DNA of 22,925 nt from a virus. This document shows positions 4,296 through 20,907 of this stretch, one piece after another. The notes beneath the pieces are model-generated. The model made no database searches. It was given only the letters and a program-made list of their open reading frames with translations, and had not been told where the DNA came from. The DNA lies in the IMG/VR virus record IMGVR_UViG_3300043436_002055, positions 1 to 22,925 of that record. One strand, written 5' to 3'. The translations under genes and the position numbers were made by a program. Numbering within the stretch: the first letter of the stretch is position 1; each line of letters begins with the position of its first letter.

Positions 4296-5639
4296 ATGAA
4301 CACGATGAAGCTTCGCAGTTTGTACGAGTCCCGCAGCAAGGAAGGCAATGGCCGCTGGCGTTTCCTAACCGAAATGCGCCAAGGCCTGGGTCTTTGCGAC
4401 AAGGACGGCAACGACAACCGGGATTTTGCCGGGAACCTAAAGCTCGGTGAGCGCAGCTTGCGCCCTGAGCAATTCAGCCTTCAAGAGTTGGCCGAATCCA
4501 TTATTGGCCCAAGCTGGCGTTCCCTGTTCAATCCCGATTCACGGGCACTTGGACAGTACACCCAAGCCGCGTCGATGATGGAAAACAACGGCTATGCTGG
4601 TGACAAGCGGGCCTTGTTGGAAACAACCGGGTTCGGTCTTGACCCATCCGCCTTCTTGAACATCAACACCTTCACCGCTATCGTTGGCGGTCTGGTGGAA
4701 GTCAAGATTCTGGAAGCCTTCCAGAACCCTGCCCTGATTGCTGATCGTCTGATGCCCGTCGAGGCTACCAAGCTTAACGGTCAGAAGATCATCGGCGTTC
4801 AGAACATTGGTGACCGTGGTCGCAAACGCGCCCCCGGTGAAACCCACACCAGGGCACAGTTCGGTGAGCGTTGGATTCAGACCCCAGAGACCCGTGAAAA
4901 CGCACTCGCCATCGATGTGCTGAAAGAAACGGTGTTCTTTGACCTGACTGGTCAGATTCTCCAGCAGGCTGGAAATGTTGGTCTTGAGCTTGCATACCGC
5001 AAAGAGTTGGAAGTTATCGACACCATTATCGGTGTGAATAACTCCTTCATCTACAACGGTACGGGTTACAACACCTACCAAACCAGCCGGACCCTGGGTG
5101 TTCTGAACTCCCATACCAACCAGCTGATCGACTGGACCTCACTCCAATCGACCGTCCTATTGTTCACCCGTATGGAAGACCCCCATACTGGCAAGCGTCT
5201 GCTGATCACGCCTAACACCATCTTGGTGAATCCCGCCAAGCTGGCAACGGCGAACTTGATAGTGGGTGCTAGCGGAACCGAAAGGCGTACTGCCCCAGGT
5301 TCCACCCAGTCTAGTGTCGATGTTCTTAACATCAGCACCGGAAGTAGCAACCCATACTCAGGTCAGTTCCAGATTCTCTCCAGCCCTCTGTTCGAGCAGC
5401 GCGCTCTTGCAGCGGATGGTCTGAACCTGAACCAAGCCAACTCCGACGGCTTGTGGTTCATGATGGAAGCCGGTAAGAGCTTCAAGTACATGCAGAACTA
5501 CCCGCTGACTGTTCAGCAGGCTGCACCTAACCAGTACGAAATGCTTGATCGTGGTATCGTTGCGAGCTACTTCGCCAACGAGCGCGGTATCCCAAGCATC
5601 TGGTCACCTTGGCATGTTGTTAAGAACAACAATGCCTAA
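4296..5639 (+). CDS. Major capsid protein
   Basis: The 447-residue product follows the protease-scaffold and decoration genes and precedes the neck genes, the usual place of the major capsid protein. It has the size of HK97-fold capsid proteins. The N-terminal 110 residues are charged and helical and could include a delta or scaffold-like arm removed by the upstream protease. The central part (RLMPVEATKLNGQKIIGV and the later PETRENALAIDVLKET) and the C-terminal NYPLTVQQAAPNQYEMLDRG segment resemble capsid proteins of this class. AAAGG at 4282-4286 is the ribosome binding site. Codon choice is more GC-rich and regular than in the tail genes, as expected for a highly expressed gene. Cleavage is not shown by the sequence. 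Confidence 0.85.
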   Translation: MNTMKLRSLYESRSKEGNGRWRFLTEMRQGLGLCDKDGNDNRDFAGNLKLGERSLRPEQFSLQELAESIIGPSWRSLFNPDSRALGQYTQAASMMENNGYAGDKRALLETTGFGLDPSAFLNINTFTAIVGGLVEVKILEAFQNPALIADRLMPVEATKLNGQKIIGVQNIGDRGRKRAPGETHTRAQFGERWIQTPETRENALAIDVLKETVFFDLTGQILQQAGNVGLELAYRKELEVIDTIIGVNNSFIYNGTGYNTYQTSRTLGVLNSHTNQLIDWTSLQSTVLLFTRMEDPHTGKRLLITPNTILVNPAKLATANLIVGASGTERRTAPGSTQSSVDVLNISTGSSNPYSGQFQILSSPLFEQRALAADGLNLNQANSDGLWFMMEAGKSFKYMQNYPLTVQQAAPNQYEMLDRGIVASYFANERGIPSIWSPWHVVKNNNA

Positions 5640-8010: not shown

Positions 8011-8492
8011 TGGCACTTAGTCTGGCATCTGTAACCGGCAATCTGTCTTGGACACAAACCAAGACGAATACCGGATTTCAGGACAGCATTCAAGGACTTG
8101 ATGCCGTCTCCGCATCTGCGTCACCAGCCATTACAGGGGCTACGCCTGCTAATGTTGTTTATGCTGAGCAGAGAACTCTTGCTGCTGCTGGAACGCAAAC
8201 CTACGACCTGCAAAGCATGACTGACTTTTTGAATCAGTCATTGACTATGACCAGAGCGTTTGCGATTGCCGTCTCTTGCTCGTCTGGACAGGTGACTCTC
8301 CAGCAGGGAGCAACAAATCCACTTACTTGGCCATTATCTGGAACCGCCCCGGCTTTGATTGTGACGAGCGGTAGTTTCTTTATCCTTGGACAGACGACCG
8401 CGCAAGCAGTAAGCGGAAGTGCCAAGACCTTGAAAATCACAGCTGGTGGTTCTGGGGCAACTTACAAAATAGCTATATTGGGAGGTCAATAA
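8010..8492 (+). CDS. Hypothetical Ser/Thr/Ala-rich virion protein
   Basis: This 160-residue protein begins LSLASVTGNLSWTQTKTNTG. Repeated Ala/Ser/Thr segments are followed by an apparent beta-sandwich half (LTMTRAFAIAVSCSSGQVT to GGSGATYKIAILGG). It resembles the preceding protein in composition and ends similarly, but the two cannot be aligned by eye as certain duplicates. Function is unknown; a structural role is inferred from the operon. Confidence 0.5.
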   Translation: MALSLASVTGNLSWTQTKTNTGFQDSIQGLDAVSASASPAITGATPANVVYAEQRTLAAAGTQTYDLQSMTDFLNQSLTMTRAFAIAVSCSSGQVTLQQGATNPLTWPLSGTAPALIVTSGSFFILGQTTAQAVSGSAKTLKITAGGSGATYKIAILGGQ

Positions 8493-13805: not shown

Positions 13806-14873
13806 ATGGGTGCTGGGGCGTATGCGAATCTTCTTGCTGGAAACTGCTTGGTAGAACCTGTAAGGTTCTGCTCACCGTTCAAGGAGTTTTGCGTTCACAC
13901 TTTGGGTTCAACCCCGGCATTAGCATCATATCCAGATTCCGGACTATTTGGCTGTAATTCATATTCGACCAATGCTGGAACTCAGCTACTTGATAATCCA
14001 CGCATCCCTGACGCATTGACACGGCATCGACTATACGGGCAGACCACTTCAGATGTAACATTGCCGACATACTTTCAGACGGCAGACCTTGCCCCGTGGA
14101 GATCGCGCAGGGTCATCATGCCGACAGACCCGTACAACATTCGAGCCAGCGGGCCTGCTGTAAGACAAGCCCATATGTATACGATGCTTCGCAGGCGATT
14201 AAAGCGGTCAGCATCGCCCAACAACAACAACTATGCAAACAAGTCAGGGTTCTATTTTACGGATGCCTCAACCGCTTATAGCAATCAACAAGATTGGCTA
14301 GGCTTCCTTCATCCTGGAATGTATTTGTGGACGAACAAAGATGTTTCTGAGCCATTCAATGCCGTCTCGTATTACGAAGATTCCGGTACAAATCCCGTCT
14401 ACACGGATACCTATAACAAGCAGATAATCCCGTTCTGCACCCCTGTGAACACTTACAATGCGGCGGGCACTCTTCTTGGACAGTATATCGGCTACACGAT
14501 GATGTTCGTATTCGGCATGGCGTTCCTCAAGTATCCAATCCCAGGATTCAAGCCGGAAGATTATTACAGCACTAGTCCAACACCACCAGAAGTCACACCG
14601 ACATTTCAATTCTTTTCAATTGACTGTCATCTTTTTATGGTTGGTTCACCAGCATCTGGTCAGACCTTGAAGTCTCCCAAGATCGGATCGACGCGGTATT
14701 GGACTTACAATAAAGATGGGACAACTTGGAATATTTGTGACCAGTATATGTATATGCTCAACGGTTTATATACATCTAACTGGAAATTCAATGTTGCGTT
14801 CAACTATGTTGGAAGCGGCAATGAGACAATCCTGTTTAATATGTCCAACCTAAATGTGTATGTGACCCCATGA
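13806..14873 (+). CDS. Hypothetical tail / baseplate protein
   Basis: This 355-residue protein is rich in Tyr, Asn, Pro and Ser. It has a basic patch (MLRRRLKRSASPNNNN) near residue 130 and aromatic beta-like segments towards the C-terminus (STRYWTYNKDGTTWN, NWKFNVAFNYVGSG). A hydrophobic turn around QYIGYTMMFVFGMAFLKYP (residues 225-243) is noteworthy. GGTGATC just before the ATG matches the far end of the 16S anti-Shine-Dalgarno complement, and the gene abuts the one before in the same frame. No family is recognised; virion role is inferred. Confidence 0.55.
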   Translation: MGAGAYANLLAGNCLVEPVRFCSPFKEFCVHTLGSTPALASYPDSGLFGCNSYSTNAGTQLLDNPRIPDALTRHRLYGQTTSDVTLPTYFQTADLAPWRSRRVIMPTDPYNIRASGPAVRQAHMYTMLRRRLKRSASPNNNNYANKSGFYFTDASTAYSNQQDWLGFLHPGMYLWTNKDVSEPFNAVSYYEDSGTNPVYTDTYNKQIIPFCTPVNTYNAAGTLLGQYIGYTMMFVFGMAFLKYPIPGFKPEDYYSTSPTPPEVTPTFQFFSIDCHLFMVGSPASGQTLKSPKIGSTRYWTYNKDGTTWNICDQYMYMLNGLYTSNWKFNVAFNYVGSGNETILFNMSNLNVYVTP

Positions 14874-16915
14874 CAACCTACAACCAGAATGTTGCCCAGA
14901 ATGTTTGTGGTCCATTGCCGGTCACAATTCCGGTCAACATTGATTGCAGCTTATGCGCCATAGGATTCCCCCAGGCTGGTGGGATGATTGGCATCAATTT
15001 TTTTGGGCCAAGATGTATTGCAGGGGCTGATCCAAGTCCAAGTTATTGGCTTGGATTCAACACCAAGATGGCTCAATGGAAATGCCCCAATCCAGGTCAA
15101 GATGCCGAGCCTGAACCAAATACTTGGGTGGCTACCGGGTTCTTTGGTGGAGCGTCATCCGGCGGATGTTCCAATCAATACAGATTTGACGCAACTTTGG
15201 TAGCTTTGAACTCATCCCAAATAAGTATCAGCGTAAGCGTCAAGGTTCTGGCGCAAACAGCAGGTGTATGGTCATGGCAAAGCTATATGTCTTGGTCAGA
15301 AACCCTGACGGAAATAGTTAATGCGGACACTACCCGCTACCGGGGAAGGGCATTTGCAAGCCCAGATTTCATCTCAGTAACGCCATCGTCCGTTGGGGGG
15401 ACTGGTGACCCGGTAAGTTTTGTAAAGACGATTGTAGGCTTAACATCTATGAGGTCTGGGTGTGGCTCAGTAAACAATGCCGTTCCAGATGTATGCGGAT
15501 TTTGGGATGGGACTCAATGGCTCAGTTGTCTTCGTGGAATGGTACTGTCCACCGGAAGCACAACTATTCGCGGCTTCACCCAATTCGGATTCAACACGCC
15601 AACCTGCAACACCTTGGACTCTTGCGGGTGCGACAGAATAATTCTGTCATCCGTATCCCCACCAGCAGGGACTTGTGTTTATAACAGCAACGCTTTTGCA
15701 GCAACCTATGGGGTTCTTGGTCTTCCTGGAGGAGTGGAATCTGTAGGTGCGATTCAACAGGTTCAATACGCCCCTGCTGTTGCTGGGATAGACATTATCG
15801 TCAAGCAGGTTAATGGCGGGACTATTTACATCTGCACCAATGACAACGGGGCCGGTTGGGTAATATCGGCGGCAACTGTATCACAAGCCAAGGGGCCAAG
15901 GATTTTAACGGCTAGTAGGACTGGATTCGATGTTTATTTGTATTCTTTGAACTTCCCTAATGATAACCTGCTTGCCGATTCTTGCTCTTCTGGTGGACAG
16001 TATCCAACACCTGGGGAAGGTGATCCCTACTGGTGTACTCCTAGCGGTTGCTTACAATCGCCCCTCCAGCCAGCAGGTGCGTATGGTGGACCTTATTCAA
16101 CCAGCGGGGCTTGCGCTACAGCCTGCGCGGCATTAACGCCACCCAATCCGCCTTACTGGTGCGTTAGTGAGGTCTGCGTCCAATCGTCAACCCCTCCAGA
16201 AGGATACACGGGAGGCCCATACGCTTCACTAGTCTTATGCCAAGCTGCATCATGCGAACCTGCGCCTCCATCAGGTGATTACTGGTGCTTGTATGGCAAT
16301 TGTGTTCAAAACGCCACTAGTCCAGATGCATCGGCTACTGGACCGTATGCAACTCTAGGGGCTTGTTCAGCAGCTTGCACAGAAACTGCCCAGATGGTTT
16401 GGCATTGTTCAGATTTGGGCTGTGGGACGATAACCAGGTCTAGTGCAATAATGAATGGTTACACCTATTACCTTACGGAGGCAGCTTGTAATTCTGCCTG
16501 CCCAACACAGTTCTGGTGTGTTGATTTTGCTTGTTTTGAATACTGGACTGGTTATACGCCAACAAGTCCGTCTGCCGGGCCCTTTGCAAACATAGAAGCT
16601 TGTTATACAGAATGCAGTACCGGGGCCGGTTGGTACTGCCTTAGTGGAACTTGTGGTTATTATCCAGACAGGCCACCTGGAGCAACAGGTCCAAGGTCAG
16701 GGAGTTATTTAGAATGCCAACCAAATTGCTTTGTGCTAGAGGGTTTTGAAGGAACAATGCCTCCACAGGAGGAAGAAACAGTCCCAGTTGTGGCCTATGG
16801 TGGAAGACCAGTTGTTTCAAAAGCATTGGTTAAAAATATAACAAACGAACAGATGCAAAGAATAAAGCTGCCATGCATCCACAGGGGTGAGAGATTGGCA
16901 TCGGGATTTACCTGA
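14870..16915 (+). CDS. Cys-rich repeat tail protein ending at an in-frame UGA
   Basis: The 681-residue product starts as ATGA over the previous stop. Residues 1-370 are beta-rich with scattered cysteines and a Trp/Ser-rich core (VWSWQSYMSWSETL). Residues 387-620 hold six repeats, each Tyr/Phe/Trp-Trp/His/Tyr-Cys-x4-Cys, about 20 residues with Pro/Gly, then Cys-x3 or 4-Cys. This is a disulfide-rich or metal-binding array likely exposed on the tail. A linker with PPQEEETVPV follows, then LPCIHRGERLASGFT and TGA. The frame continues past the TGA for 39 codons that complete a Cys/His motif, so the true C-terminus may lie at 17035. Role in tail adhesion is inferred. Confidence 0.65.
   Translation: MTTYNQNVAQNVCGPLPVTIPVNIDCSLCAIGFPQAGGMIGINFFGPRCIAGADPSPSYWLGFNTKMAQWKCPNPGQDAEPEPNTWVATGFFGGASSGGCSNQYRFDATLVALNSSQISISVSVKVLAQTAGVWSWQSYMSWSETLTEIVNADTTRYRGRAFASPDFISVTPSSVGGTGDPVSFVKTIVGLTSMRSGCGSVNNAVPDVCGFWDGTQWLSCLRGMVLSTGSTTIRGFTQFGFNTPTCNTLDSCGCDRIILSSVSPPAGTCVYNSNAFAATYGVLGLPGGVESVGAIQQVQYAPAVAGIDIIVKQVNGGTIYICTNDNGAGWVISAATVSQAKGPRILTASRTGFDVYLYSLNFPNDNLLADSCSSGGQYPTPGEGDPYWCTPSGCLQSPLQPAGAYGGPYSTSGACATACAALTPPNPPYWCVSEVCVQSSTPPEGYTGGPYASLVLCQAASCEPAPPSGDYWCLYGNCVQNATSPDASATGPYATLGACSAACTETAQMVWHCSDLGCGTITRSSAIMNGYTYYLTEAACNSACPTQFWCVDFACFEYWTGYTPTSPSAGPFANIEACYTECSTGAGWYCLSGTCGYYPDRPPGATGPRSGSYLECQPNCFVLEGFEGTMPPQEEETVPVVAYGGRPVVSKALVKNITNEQMQRIKLPCIHRGERLASGFT
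16028..16729 (+). repeat. Six Cys-rich repeats of about 33-35 residues
   Basis: Protein residues 387-419, 429-462, 471-503, 511-544, 548-582 and 588-620 share aromatic-x-C-x4-C, then a Pro/Gly-rich stretch ending in GPY or similar, then C-x3/4-C. Copies 1-3 are most alike; 4-6 have drifted but keep all four cysteines. Linkers of 3-9 residues separate them. Confidence 0.75.
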
Positions 16916-17035
16916 GCAAGTCGCACAAATTACTCATGCGGTCTGCATGGAACCTGCTCTTTCTTCAAATCCGAAGGCATTAACAAGGAATGCATGACTT
17001 GTGAAGATTATTCTGGAAAGGACATTGCCAATTAA
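16913..17035 (+). other. In-frame continuation of the Cys-rich protein beyond UGA
   Basis: From the TGA at 16913 the frame stays open for 39 codons to TAA at 17033. The encoded residues include SRTNYSCGLHGTCSFF and ECMTCEDYSG. Together with LPCIHRGE before the stop this gives C-x-HRGE ... C-x2-HG-x-C ... C-x2-C-x-D-Y, a motif order I know from uninterrupted phage and planctomycete proteins. In related proteins a Cys sits near the position of the TGA, and TGA is one base away from Cys codons. The extended protein would have 721 residues. Whether it is made is unknown. Confidence 0.55.
16914..16959 (+). promoter_or_regulatory. SECIS-like hairpin directly after the in-frame UGA
   Basis: GAGCA (16914-16918, including the last two bases of the UGA) can pair with TGCTC (16955-16959). 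An apical stem CATGC (16935-16939) with GCATG (16945-16949) closes a GGTCT loop. The UGA-to-loop distance is 24 nt, and a GGUCU apical loop also occurs in the Escherichia coli fdhF selenocysteine element. The large asymmetric internal loop weakens the case, and short stems occur by chance. Confidence 0.35.
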
Positions 17036-17835: not shown

Positions 17836-20800
17836 ATGGCATTGATTAAATCTGATAGGGTCAAGGAAACATCCACAAGCACCGGCAATGGAACATTTTC
17901 TCTTGCCGGTGCTGCTACAGGGTATCGGACCTTTGCGTCCGTATGCGTTGTGGGAGATACTTTCTTTTATGGAATTAGCAATCAAACTAGCGGTGAATGG
18001 GAGACTGGATTAGGAACCTATTCTGCTACAAATACGCTGACAAGAACAACAGTTCATGCCAGCAGTAATTCAGGGGCAATTGTCACATTTGGAGCAGGAA
18101 ATAAGGAAGTATTCCTGACGGCATCCGCTCGTTATTTAGAGCGCATAGTCGATAATGAACTGTTCACTTCAGTTGGATCATCAACTTCAGTTGTCGCCGT
18201 GAATGACGGGCCTCAACCGCAGCTTGATTTGGCATTCTCTGCGGATAAGACGCTGACTGCTCGATACGGACCAACGCCATCGTTCAGCCGGGCATCGACT
18301 GGAACAGTTACCAACTCGTCTGGCGTGTTGACTTCTGCTGCTGTGAATGAACCTCGATTTGACCATGTGCTTGAAAATGGAGTGTGGGTTAGTAAGGGGC
18401 TGTTGATTGAAGAGCAGCGGACGAATCTCTGTTTGCAATCCAATGTGACAAATACAACTTGGACTTCTTATAGGGCGACTTGTACGACCAATTCAATTTC
18501 CTCGCCAGATGGAACTATCAATGCTTCGCTAATTGTCGAGGGCTCTTTTAATGATGTTCATTATCACAGACAAAATCTTTCTATTTCATCTGGAACATAC
18601 ACGGTAAGTGTTTACGCAAAAGCAAAAGAAAGGTACATCGTAAGTTTTGGCGGAGCTGCTACTGGAAGAAAGTATTTCAACCTTCAGACTGGAACAGTTG
18701 GATCAACTGCTTTTGGATCACCAGCGTCTACATCCATCACGCCAGTTGGCAATGGTTGGTACAGATTATCTGTAACAGGTCCATCTTATGCTGGTGGTTT
18801 AGGCGAACATATTCAATTAATCCTTGCAAATAATATTGAAAATGAAACATATTCAGGAGACGGAACTAGCGGTGCCTATTTCTGGGGCGCACAAGTTGAA
18901 GCAGGTTCATTCCCCACCAGCTATATTCCAACAGTTGCAACCTCAGTAGTACGCTCAGCAGATGTATGTCAGATTACTGGTGGTGATTTTAGCGGGTTTT
19001 ATAATCAGAGTGTAGGATCGATTGCTATTGAATACGACATGGCTACAACGGCGTTAGGGTCTGCAATTCAAAGACCTCTAACAGTTTGGAATAGTGGCTA
19101 CACTAGCGGGATTGTATTAGACAACCGATCAGCAGGAACAACTATAGAACTTGGGACAAATGCTGGGGTTGACTTCGGATCAGTAGTCAGTCCAAGCAGC
19201 ATTGCAATGGCGTACAAAATAAACGATTTTGCAGCGTCCAGAAACGGTGCAGCAGTATTAACAGACACTTCTGGAACCGTTGTATCAAGTCCAATTTTGA
19301 TGAACATTGGCAACAATGTTAGTAGTTTATTTCACAACGGCCACATCGCCCGCCTACGCTACTTCAACACTCGCCTTGCTAATCAAACTCTCGTCCAACT
19401 AAGCGGTGGAATCAACAATCTCGTCTACAAATCCATCACGGGAAGCGGTAACGCTACTGTTACGAATGGCTACACCAATATCAATGTAAGCGTCCCTAAT
19501 CCGCTACCTGTGGCTAATGGTGGTACTGGTGGAACTACTGCCGTTTCTGGAGCAGTTAATCTAATTAAATCTGCGCCTAATGATGGTGCGGAATACACGC
19601 TCAAGAGCAAGCAAATTAGCGGTACGCCATCGTTCTATTGGGTCGATTCGACTGGATACGCTCCGACATTGGATCTGTTGTTTGCTGCGGATAAATCACT
19701 TACGGCGTATACTGGGCCGACTCCTTCATATAGTCGAGCAAGCACGGGCACTTATTTCAATGCGTCTGGGGTACTAACCACAGCAGCGATTAACGCTCCC
19801 CGTTTCAATCATGTCTACAACGGGTCTAGCTGGGTGTCTAAAGGGTTGTTGATTGAGGAGCAGAGGACGAATATAATTCTGCAAAGCCAAGACGCAAGCA
19901 ACGTATCGTGGACGAAACTTGCGGTCACGACTACTCCGAACTCTGGCATATTCGTCGATGGTACGCAGACCGCCGCTTTGATAACAGCAAGCATTTTGGA
20001 CACGAATCGACACCTAATCTACCAAACTGTTACCGCCGCCGCTGGCACTTACTCATTTAGCACGTTCATCAAGAAGACGAACAACAGGTATGCCGCTGTC
20101 GGCATCAACGACAACGGCATCAGACGTTACGGCGTGAACTTCGACTTCGATACAGGCGCAGTCACGCATACTGATTCTCAAGGTACTCCGACCGGAACAG
20201 GTTACACAATTATCAATTGTGGATCTGGATGGTATCGAATTACTGTAACGATGACCAGCACCGGAACAAATATTACCGGCAATGTCGGCCTGAGTAATTC
20301 CGCTACGCCAACATGGTCATTCTCCATGCCGCAGTTTCTGAACACTGGCACAGAATCCATGCTGGCAGCAGGCTTTCAGATGGAGCTTGGCGCATTCCCC
20401 ACTAGCTACATCCCCACCACCACAGCAGCGGTGACAAGATCGGCAGATGTATGTCAGATTACTGGGACGGATTTTAGTGGGTTTTATAATCAGAGTGAAG
20501 GAAGTTTTGCGGTTGAGTTTGATGTTATATCGGAAAATGAATATCAAAGCTCTTTATATTTAGCACATCAAAGCGGAAGTAGTTGGATCGGTCAAAGGCG
20601 AAGCACAGGCTTAGGTATCTATTTCGATGTCTATAATTCCAATGTACAGCAGGCTAGATTAACTGCGACAATGCCTACTGCCGGAACTTTATTTCGCTCT
20701 GCTGGTTGCTATAAGTCCAACGACTTCGCCTGTTCTTTCAATGGTGCTGCCGTGTTGACTGATGCGGTTGGATCGCTTCCATCGCCAACATCACTAGCTA

Positions 20801-20907
20801 TTGGAAACTTTCCAGCTTATGGCGAATATCACAATGGCCATATCGCCCGCCTACGCTACTACCCAGTCCGCATTCCGAACGCCACACTACAGGTGCTATC
20901 AACATGA
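17836..20907 (+). CDS. Large tail fibre / receptor-binding protein with duplicated module
   Basis: The 1023-residue protein is rich in Ser, Thr, Gly, Ala and Asn. Residues 1-125 form an N-terminal attachment part (LIKSDRVKETSTSTG, later FGAGNKEVFLTASARYLE) typical of tail fibres. Two long homologous modules follow, at about 130-524 and 612-1023. Each begins LDL-x-F-x-ADK, has PTPS(F/Y)SRASTGT, then SKGLLIEEQRTN, a concanavalin/LamG-like beta-sandwich region with GNGWYR or GSGWYR, a QITG-x-DFSGFYNQS segment and a final GHIARLRY. Between them lies a linker with LPVANGGTGGTTA, common in fibres. AGGGTGA at 17823-17829 is the ribosome binding site. It probably binds a surface glycan, by inference. 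Confidence 0.8.
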   Translation: MALIKSDRVKETSTSTGNGTFSLAGAATGYRTFASVCVVGDTFFYGISNQTSGEWETGLGTYSATNTLTRTTVHASSNSGAIVTFGAGNKEVFLTASARYLERIVDNELFTSVGSSTSVVAVNDGPQPQLDLAFSADKTLTARYGPTPSFSRASTGTVTNSSGVLTSAAVNEPRFDHVLENGVWVSKGLLIEEQRTNLCLQSNVTNTTWTSYRATCTTNSISSPDGTINASLIVEGSFNDVHYHRQNLSISSGTYTVSVYAKAKERYIVSFGGAATGRKYFNLQTGTVGSTAFGSPASTSITPVGNGWYRLSVTGPSYAGGLGEHIQLILANNIENETYSGDGTSGAYFWGAQVEAGSFPTSYIPTVATSVVRSADVCQITGGDFSGFYNQSVGSIAIEYDMATTALGSAIQRPLTVWNSGYTSGIVLDNRSAGTTIELGTNAGVDFGSVVSPSSIAMAYKINDFAASRNGAAVLTDTSGTVVSSPILMNIGNNVSSLFHNGHIARLRYFNTRLANQTLVQLSGGINNLVYKSITGSGNATVTNGYTNINVSVPNPLPVANGGTGGTTAVSGAVNLIKSAPNDGAEYTLKSKQISGTPSFYWVDSTGYAPTLDLLFAADKSLTAYTGPTPSYSRASTGTYFNASGVLTTAAINAPRFNHVYNGSSWVSKGLLIEEQRTNIILQSQDASNVSWTKLAVTTTPNSGIFVDGTQTAALITASILDTNRHLIYQTVTAAAGTYSFSTFIKKTNNRYAAVGINDNGIRRYGVNFDFDTGAVTHTDSQGTPTGTGYTIINCGSGWYRITVTMTSTGTNITGNVGLSNSATPTWSFSMPQFLNTGTESMLAAGFQMELGAFPTSYIPTTTAAVTRSADVCQITGTDFSGFYNQSEGSFAVEFDVISENEYQSSLYLAHQSGSSWIGQRRSTGLGIYFDVYNSNVQQARLTATMPTAGTLFRSAGCYKSNDFACSFNGAAVLTDAVGSLPSPTSLAIGNFPAYGEYHNGHIARLRYYPVRIPNATLQVLST
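18223..19407 (+). repeat. Tail fibre module, copy A
   Basis: Codes for residues 130-524. It aligns with copy B over its whole length at protein level. The stretch coding for GLLIEEQRTN and that coding for ADVCQITG are also close at DNA level. The central 200 residues are less alike, suggesting different binding surfaces. Confidence 0.75.
19669..20904 (+). repeat. Tail fibre module, copy B
   Basis: Codes for residues 612-1023. The end of the copy (ATCGCCCGCCTACGCTACT) is identical in DNA to copy A, which points to a recent exchange or strong constraint at this spot compared with the drifted centre. Confidence 0.75.

Follow-up and report, generated by a model that had tools for sequence, protein, structure and literature searches.

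The cysteine-rich gene and its surroundings

The stretch of viral DNA analysed in the present work, referred to throughout as the window, is 22,925 nucleotides long, and a reading frame on its plus strand at 14870-16915 encodes 681 amino acids and ends at the TGA at 16913-16915. Beyond this codon the same frame stays open for a further 39 codons, as far as the TAA at 17033-17035, giving 721 residues in total, a layout which had been pointed out in a preliminary description of the DNA and which was confirmed by frame analysis of the window. The features of the locus are the following.

14870..17035, plus strand: the full gene when read through the UGA, 721 residues, of which 44 are Cys, not counting the UGA residue; the central part of the protein has Cys-rich repeats and the C-terminus a small Cys/His domain
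16862..17032, plus strand: the C-terminal Cys/His domain, CxH(R/L)G ... (U/C) ... C-x2-HG-x-C ... C-x2-C-x-(D/E)Y, delineated by alignments and split by the UGA in the window
16913..16915, plus strand: the in-frame UGA, which corresponds to residue 682 and is the candidate selenocysteine codon; the same codon occurs in seven other contigs, and the masked residue aligns with an invariant Cys
16914..16959, plus strand: a predicted lower stem pairing GAGCA (16914-16918) with UGCUC (16955-16959), from RNA folding; clearest in the relative L008 and not predicted in every relative
16934..16950, plus strand: a SECIS-like apical hairpin, UCAUGC (16934-16939), GGUCU (16940-16944), GCAUGG (16945-16950), which fits the model in PMC13188914 in loop, stem length and spacing
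17033..17035, plus strand: the true end of the extended frame; TAA in the window, TAG in L002, L007 and L058, TGA in none

The C-terminal domain has no match in Pfam or among solved structures (PDB), and its predicted structure is of low confidence (pLDDT 49); for the protein as a whole, no family was found in Pfam, PHROGs or PDB. Between 15980 and 16740 the protein consists of repeated Cys-rich units of the form WC...C...P...GPY...C...C, the copy number of which varies among relatives, the units being mostly missing in L051 and L052 while L058 has one extra. Downstream of the gene, at 17836-20907, lies a 1023-residue tail-family protein, the two halves of which match each other (hits to PHROG tail families cover two stretches) and whose relative in the contig of L002 has 1602 residues; that contig also encodes a protein with a PAPS reductase-like domain near the terminase (L108, 318-1055). 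The 447-residue protein encoded at 4296-5639 of the window, which by position is a possible major capsid protein, matches none of the 50,697 deposited phage records.

Taken alone, a 39-codon extension has no significance, because the plus strand of the window contains 419 TGAs and, after 50 of them, the frame stays open for this length or more. What places the extension above chance is the conservation, in divergent relatives, of the UGA, of the protein encoded downstream of it and of the hairpin.

Conservation of the UGA among relatives

Using the read-through protein as query against IMG/VR, we obtained 18 loci, to which pattern and profile scans added others. A UGA is present at the same position in seven other viral contigs, drawn from five samples, and the UGA forms fall into three groups: the window with L008; L002 with L007; and L034 with L035, L037 and L058. 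Because L034 and L035 are identical across the UGA region, the eight UGA-bearing contigs amount to seven distinct sequences; the in-frame UGA is conserved in these homologues, with coding conserved on both sides, the domain diverging by about 50% at the amino-acid level between groups. A further search for UGA forms by loop variant and upstream motif returned only those already known. In the close relatives the hairpin is conserved, the extension is present throughout, and a Cys codon never takes the place of the UGA. A recent nonsense mutation or a sequencing error, both listed among the options of the preliminary description, or an error of assembly, would require a change of only one base from TGC or TGT; all three can be excluded for practical purposes, since the same codon was met again in seven further contigs, which come from several independent samples, and across so divergent a set of domains.

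The kinship of the two parts of the protein does not agree. Over the N-terminal part, the L034 protein is approximately 36% identical to that of the window, while the UGA-free proteins of L003 and L010 reach 68% and 65%; over the C-terminal domain, the UGA form L037 is 57% identical to the window as against about 40% for L010. This disagreement suggests that the UGA-bearing domain may travel as a module, or that the UGA-free forms may have replaced the domain.

Probable translation beyond the UGA

Downstream of the UGA, comparisons between groups give 0.59-1.0 synonymous differences per site (pS) and 0.35-0.41 non-synonymous differences per site (pN), with pN/pS ratios of 0.36-0.63, so that synonymous changes approach saturation although the amino-acid sequence is conserved, which argues that the downstream codons are translated and under selection. 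The UGA is invariant across the forms, while the final terminator alternates between TAA and TAG. The next gene lies 153 nt away if the UGA terminates translation and 33 nt away if it is read through, and the intergenic gaps elsewhere in the window are mostly shorter than 35 nt. It could still be supposed that the UGA is a true terminator and that the part beyond it is either a remnant in decay or a peptide with a start of its own. The selection acting on the downstream codons across groups speaks against a remnant, and a separate start was rejected for want of a suitable start codon, since the sole in-frame ATG is codon 27 of the 39 and the codons ahead of it include neither GTG nor TTG; we therefore regard this alternative as very improbable.

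Nor is there reason, apart from the in-frame UGA itself, to suppose that the host has an altered genetic code in which UGA is a sense codon (code 4 or 25). UGA terminates nine of the 28 ORFs counted in the window (the frame at 14870-16915 included), with an ATGA overlap at 14870, and it is likewise an ordinary stop in the ORFs of the relatives, again with ATGA overlaps, so that it keeps its stop role outside the candidate gene, much as the preliminary description had maintained. A scan for other conserved in-frame UGA extensions, moreover, gave overlapping or adjacent genes and no further candidate. Reassignment is accordingly scarcely credible.

The residue at the UGA position

The UGA was masked as X, and six UGA forms were aligned with 12 UGA-free sequences under three MAFFT settings. 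For four of the six forms (the window, L037, L034 and L058) the masked residue was placed in a column occupied by Cys in all 12 UGA-free relatives, in keeping with the earlier suggestion that related proteins tend to have Cys at this site; in L002 and L007, where one codon is deleted, it fell one column off the invariant Cys. The second Cys of a CxxC pair, present in most UGA-free forms, is missing in the UGA forms, so that the UGA position may be under changed constraint, and some other relatives have CxC in place of CxxC. An apparent second copy of the domain at 40112 of the contig of L002 was rejected as a chance Cys match.

The hairpin downstream of the UGA

All seven distinct UGA forms have a hairpin of the form UGC-loop-GCA, with a loop of GGUCU or AGUUU located 21 or 24 nt after the UGA and a stem of 6-8 bp when one bulge is allowed, while none of the nine UGA-free relatives tested has this hairpin at the equivalent position. 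The bacterial SECIS model specifies an upper stem of 4-16 bp, a distance of 16-37 nt from the UGA and a minimum free energy of -7.5 kcal/mol or lower (PMC13188914), and the loop, stem length and UGA distance of the phage hairpins lie within it. Segments of 54 nt beginning at the UGA fold with energies of -9.8 to -18.5 kcal/mol, and the apical hairpin alone with -6.5 to -8.9 kcal/mol, so that the longer segments lie below the energy threshold while some of the apical hairpins alone do not; in L002, L007 and L037 the minimum-energy global fold of the longer segment differs from the SECIS hairpin. The fit to this model in loop, stem and spacing, together with a near match to the element of E. coli fdhF, upholds the likeness to a bacterial selenocysteine insertion element that had been proposed from the window, while two details of the proposal require qualification: the spacing of 24 nt holds for the start of the GGUCU loop but not for the helix, and the inclusion of the UGA in base pairs holds for its G and A in the folds predicted for the window and for L008, though not for every relative.

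When synonymous codons were randomised with the protein kept unchanged, the fraction of sequences having a hairpin at the same position, with GU in the loop and an equal or better energy, was 0.030 for the window, 0.018 for L002, 0.015 for L037, 0.005 for L034 and below 0.0005 for L058, five values which are not independent because the sequences are related. The hairpin energies by themselves are modestly better than those of synonymous controls. The covariation signal is weak, as is to be expected with only seven sequences: one pair has changed on both sides, in either register, and shuffled alignments often reach the observed values.

The element of E. coli fdhF (formate dehydrogenase H) resembles that of the phages in that the UGA is followed by a hairpin within the coding sequence, of the form UGC-loop-GCA and with GGUCU in the loop. 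The fdhF element is UGCaGGUCUGCA, with GGUCU 18 nt after the UGA (read directly from NC_000913, it is UGCAGGUCUGCA), and the phage element is UGCGGUCUGCA, with a spacing of 24 or 21 nt. The phage protein, on the other hand, is unrelated, the phage loop is one base shorter, and a 3'-side bulge or an AGUUU loop occurs in some of the phage relatives. An E. coli-type SECIS requires a bulged U17 on the 5' side together with G23 and U24 in the loop (PMC8659212); the loop GU is present in all of the phage forms but the 5' bulged U in none, and E. coli SelB may for this reason not read the hairpin.

The two loop variants are found in otherwise nearly identical phages. L035 and L037 have 15 differences in 11,494 aligned positions, two of which (positions 8094 and 8097) fall in the loop and separate GGUCU from AGUUU, and the AGUUU loop also occurs in the more distant L058. 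Both variants keep the central GU, and in both the first and last bases can pair (G-U or A-U). The chance that at least two of 15 substitutions hit the five loop bases is about 1.6e-5, for a loop that was chosen post hoc. It is possible, though we think it unlikely, that these phages have a family of virion selenoproteins in which selenocysteine replaces the conserved Cys of the Cys/His domain and in which switching between GGUCU and AGUUU is an adaptation to different host SelB proteins.

Proposed selenocysteine insertion and the readthrough alternative

The reading we prefer, to which we assign a probability of roughly 0.77, is that a phage gene of the structural region encodes a Cys-rich protein with a selenocysteine in its C-terminal Cys/His domain, inserted by the machinery of the host. 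A ribosome arriving at UGA 16913 would receive selenocysteine from host SelB carrying Sec-tRNA and docked on the downstream hairpin through its G-U-containing loop, and translation of 39 more codons would then complete the domain; failed insertion would leave the 681-residue form, in which the domain is without its C-terminal half. From the evidence above we infer the inserted residue, the use of host SelA/B/C/D, the location in the virion and the role of the protein. The selenium, since it would stand at the position of an invariant Cys in the relatives, probably acts as a metal ligand or a redox thiol. A role in the virion is suggested by the position of the gene just upstream of the tail-family gene and by the 44 Cys, the designation "tail protein" deriving from gene order only.

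The main rival is programmed readthrough of the UGA by a near-cognate tRNA (for example tRNA-Trp), aided by the hairpin, which would yield a small share of extended protein as it does in phage Q-beta, where UGA readthrough likewise extends a virion protein (the coat protein) with a standard residue inserted and no SECIS needed. Such readthrough would account for the conservation of the UGA and the extension, and a stimulatory hairpin would be conserved as well. Against it speak the coincidence of the UGA with an invariant Cys and the fdhF-like loop at SECIS spacing in every UGA form, and the extension supplies half of one small domain rather than an added domain. The base following the UGA, furthermore, is G or A in all forms and C in none, UGAC being the leakiest UGA context. 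The pairing of UGA with Cys, the fdhF-like loop and the occurrence of the hairpin in UGA forms only favour selenocysteine, one of the options originally put forward for the window, and we consider plain readthrough improbable, although it is by some way the most serious alternative.

Readthrough gains some support from the machinery, in that SelB was not found in the seven phage contigs searched, and the search of phage contigs for tRNA-Sec gave nothing that passed the cut-off; the absence of both is nevertheless what would be expected if the host supplies both. A tRNA-Sec-like stretch in the contig of L002 was rejected, as it scores 19.5 bits against a cut-off of 47 bits and ARAGORN finds no tRNA there. 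Relatives sought in bacterial genomes and deposited phages for host assignment were not found, and the matches to terminase and portal proteins are too distant and too mixed to serve this purpose.

Known systems and implications

Selenocysteine is known from cellular proteins and from a few enzymes of eukaryotic viruses. Surveys of bacterial selenoproteins have relied on conservation of the UGA in two or more different sequences, on the existence of several Cys homologues and on a SECIS-like hairpin (PMC1088965, PMC12013277), all of which the phage gene possesses; the families in those surveys are cellular and mostly redox proteins, whereas the phage product is a protein of the structural region with no known enzyme domain. 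The glutathione peroxidases of the poxviruses molluscum contagiosum and fowlpox show that a viral gene can draw on the selenocysteine machinery of its host (PMC8310308), as we suppose the phage gene to do, but they belong to eukaryotic viruses, are captured host enzymes and depend on a eukaryotic SECIS. A link between phages and selenocysteine is also suggested by the tRNA-Sec genes annotated in huge phages, which are predictions only and which, in the part of that source drawn on here, are not accompanied by an identified selenoprotein gene (PMC10747093). The reviews and methods papers on prokaryotic selenoproteins consulted here make no mention of phages or viruses, and the open-licence papers searched contained no report of a phage selenoprotein, the matches concerning other viruses.

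It is probable that these uncultured phages make a selenium-containing protein, for which no earlier phage case was found in the open-licence literature searched. If this is true, infection by these phages would depend on the selenium metabolism of the host, SelB could limit their host range, and standard gene calling would truncate such phage proteins. The UGA and hairpin region forms a short cassette, of about 170 nt, in which the proposal can be tested.
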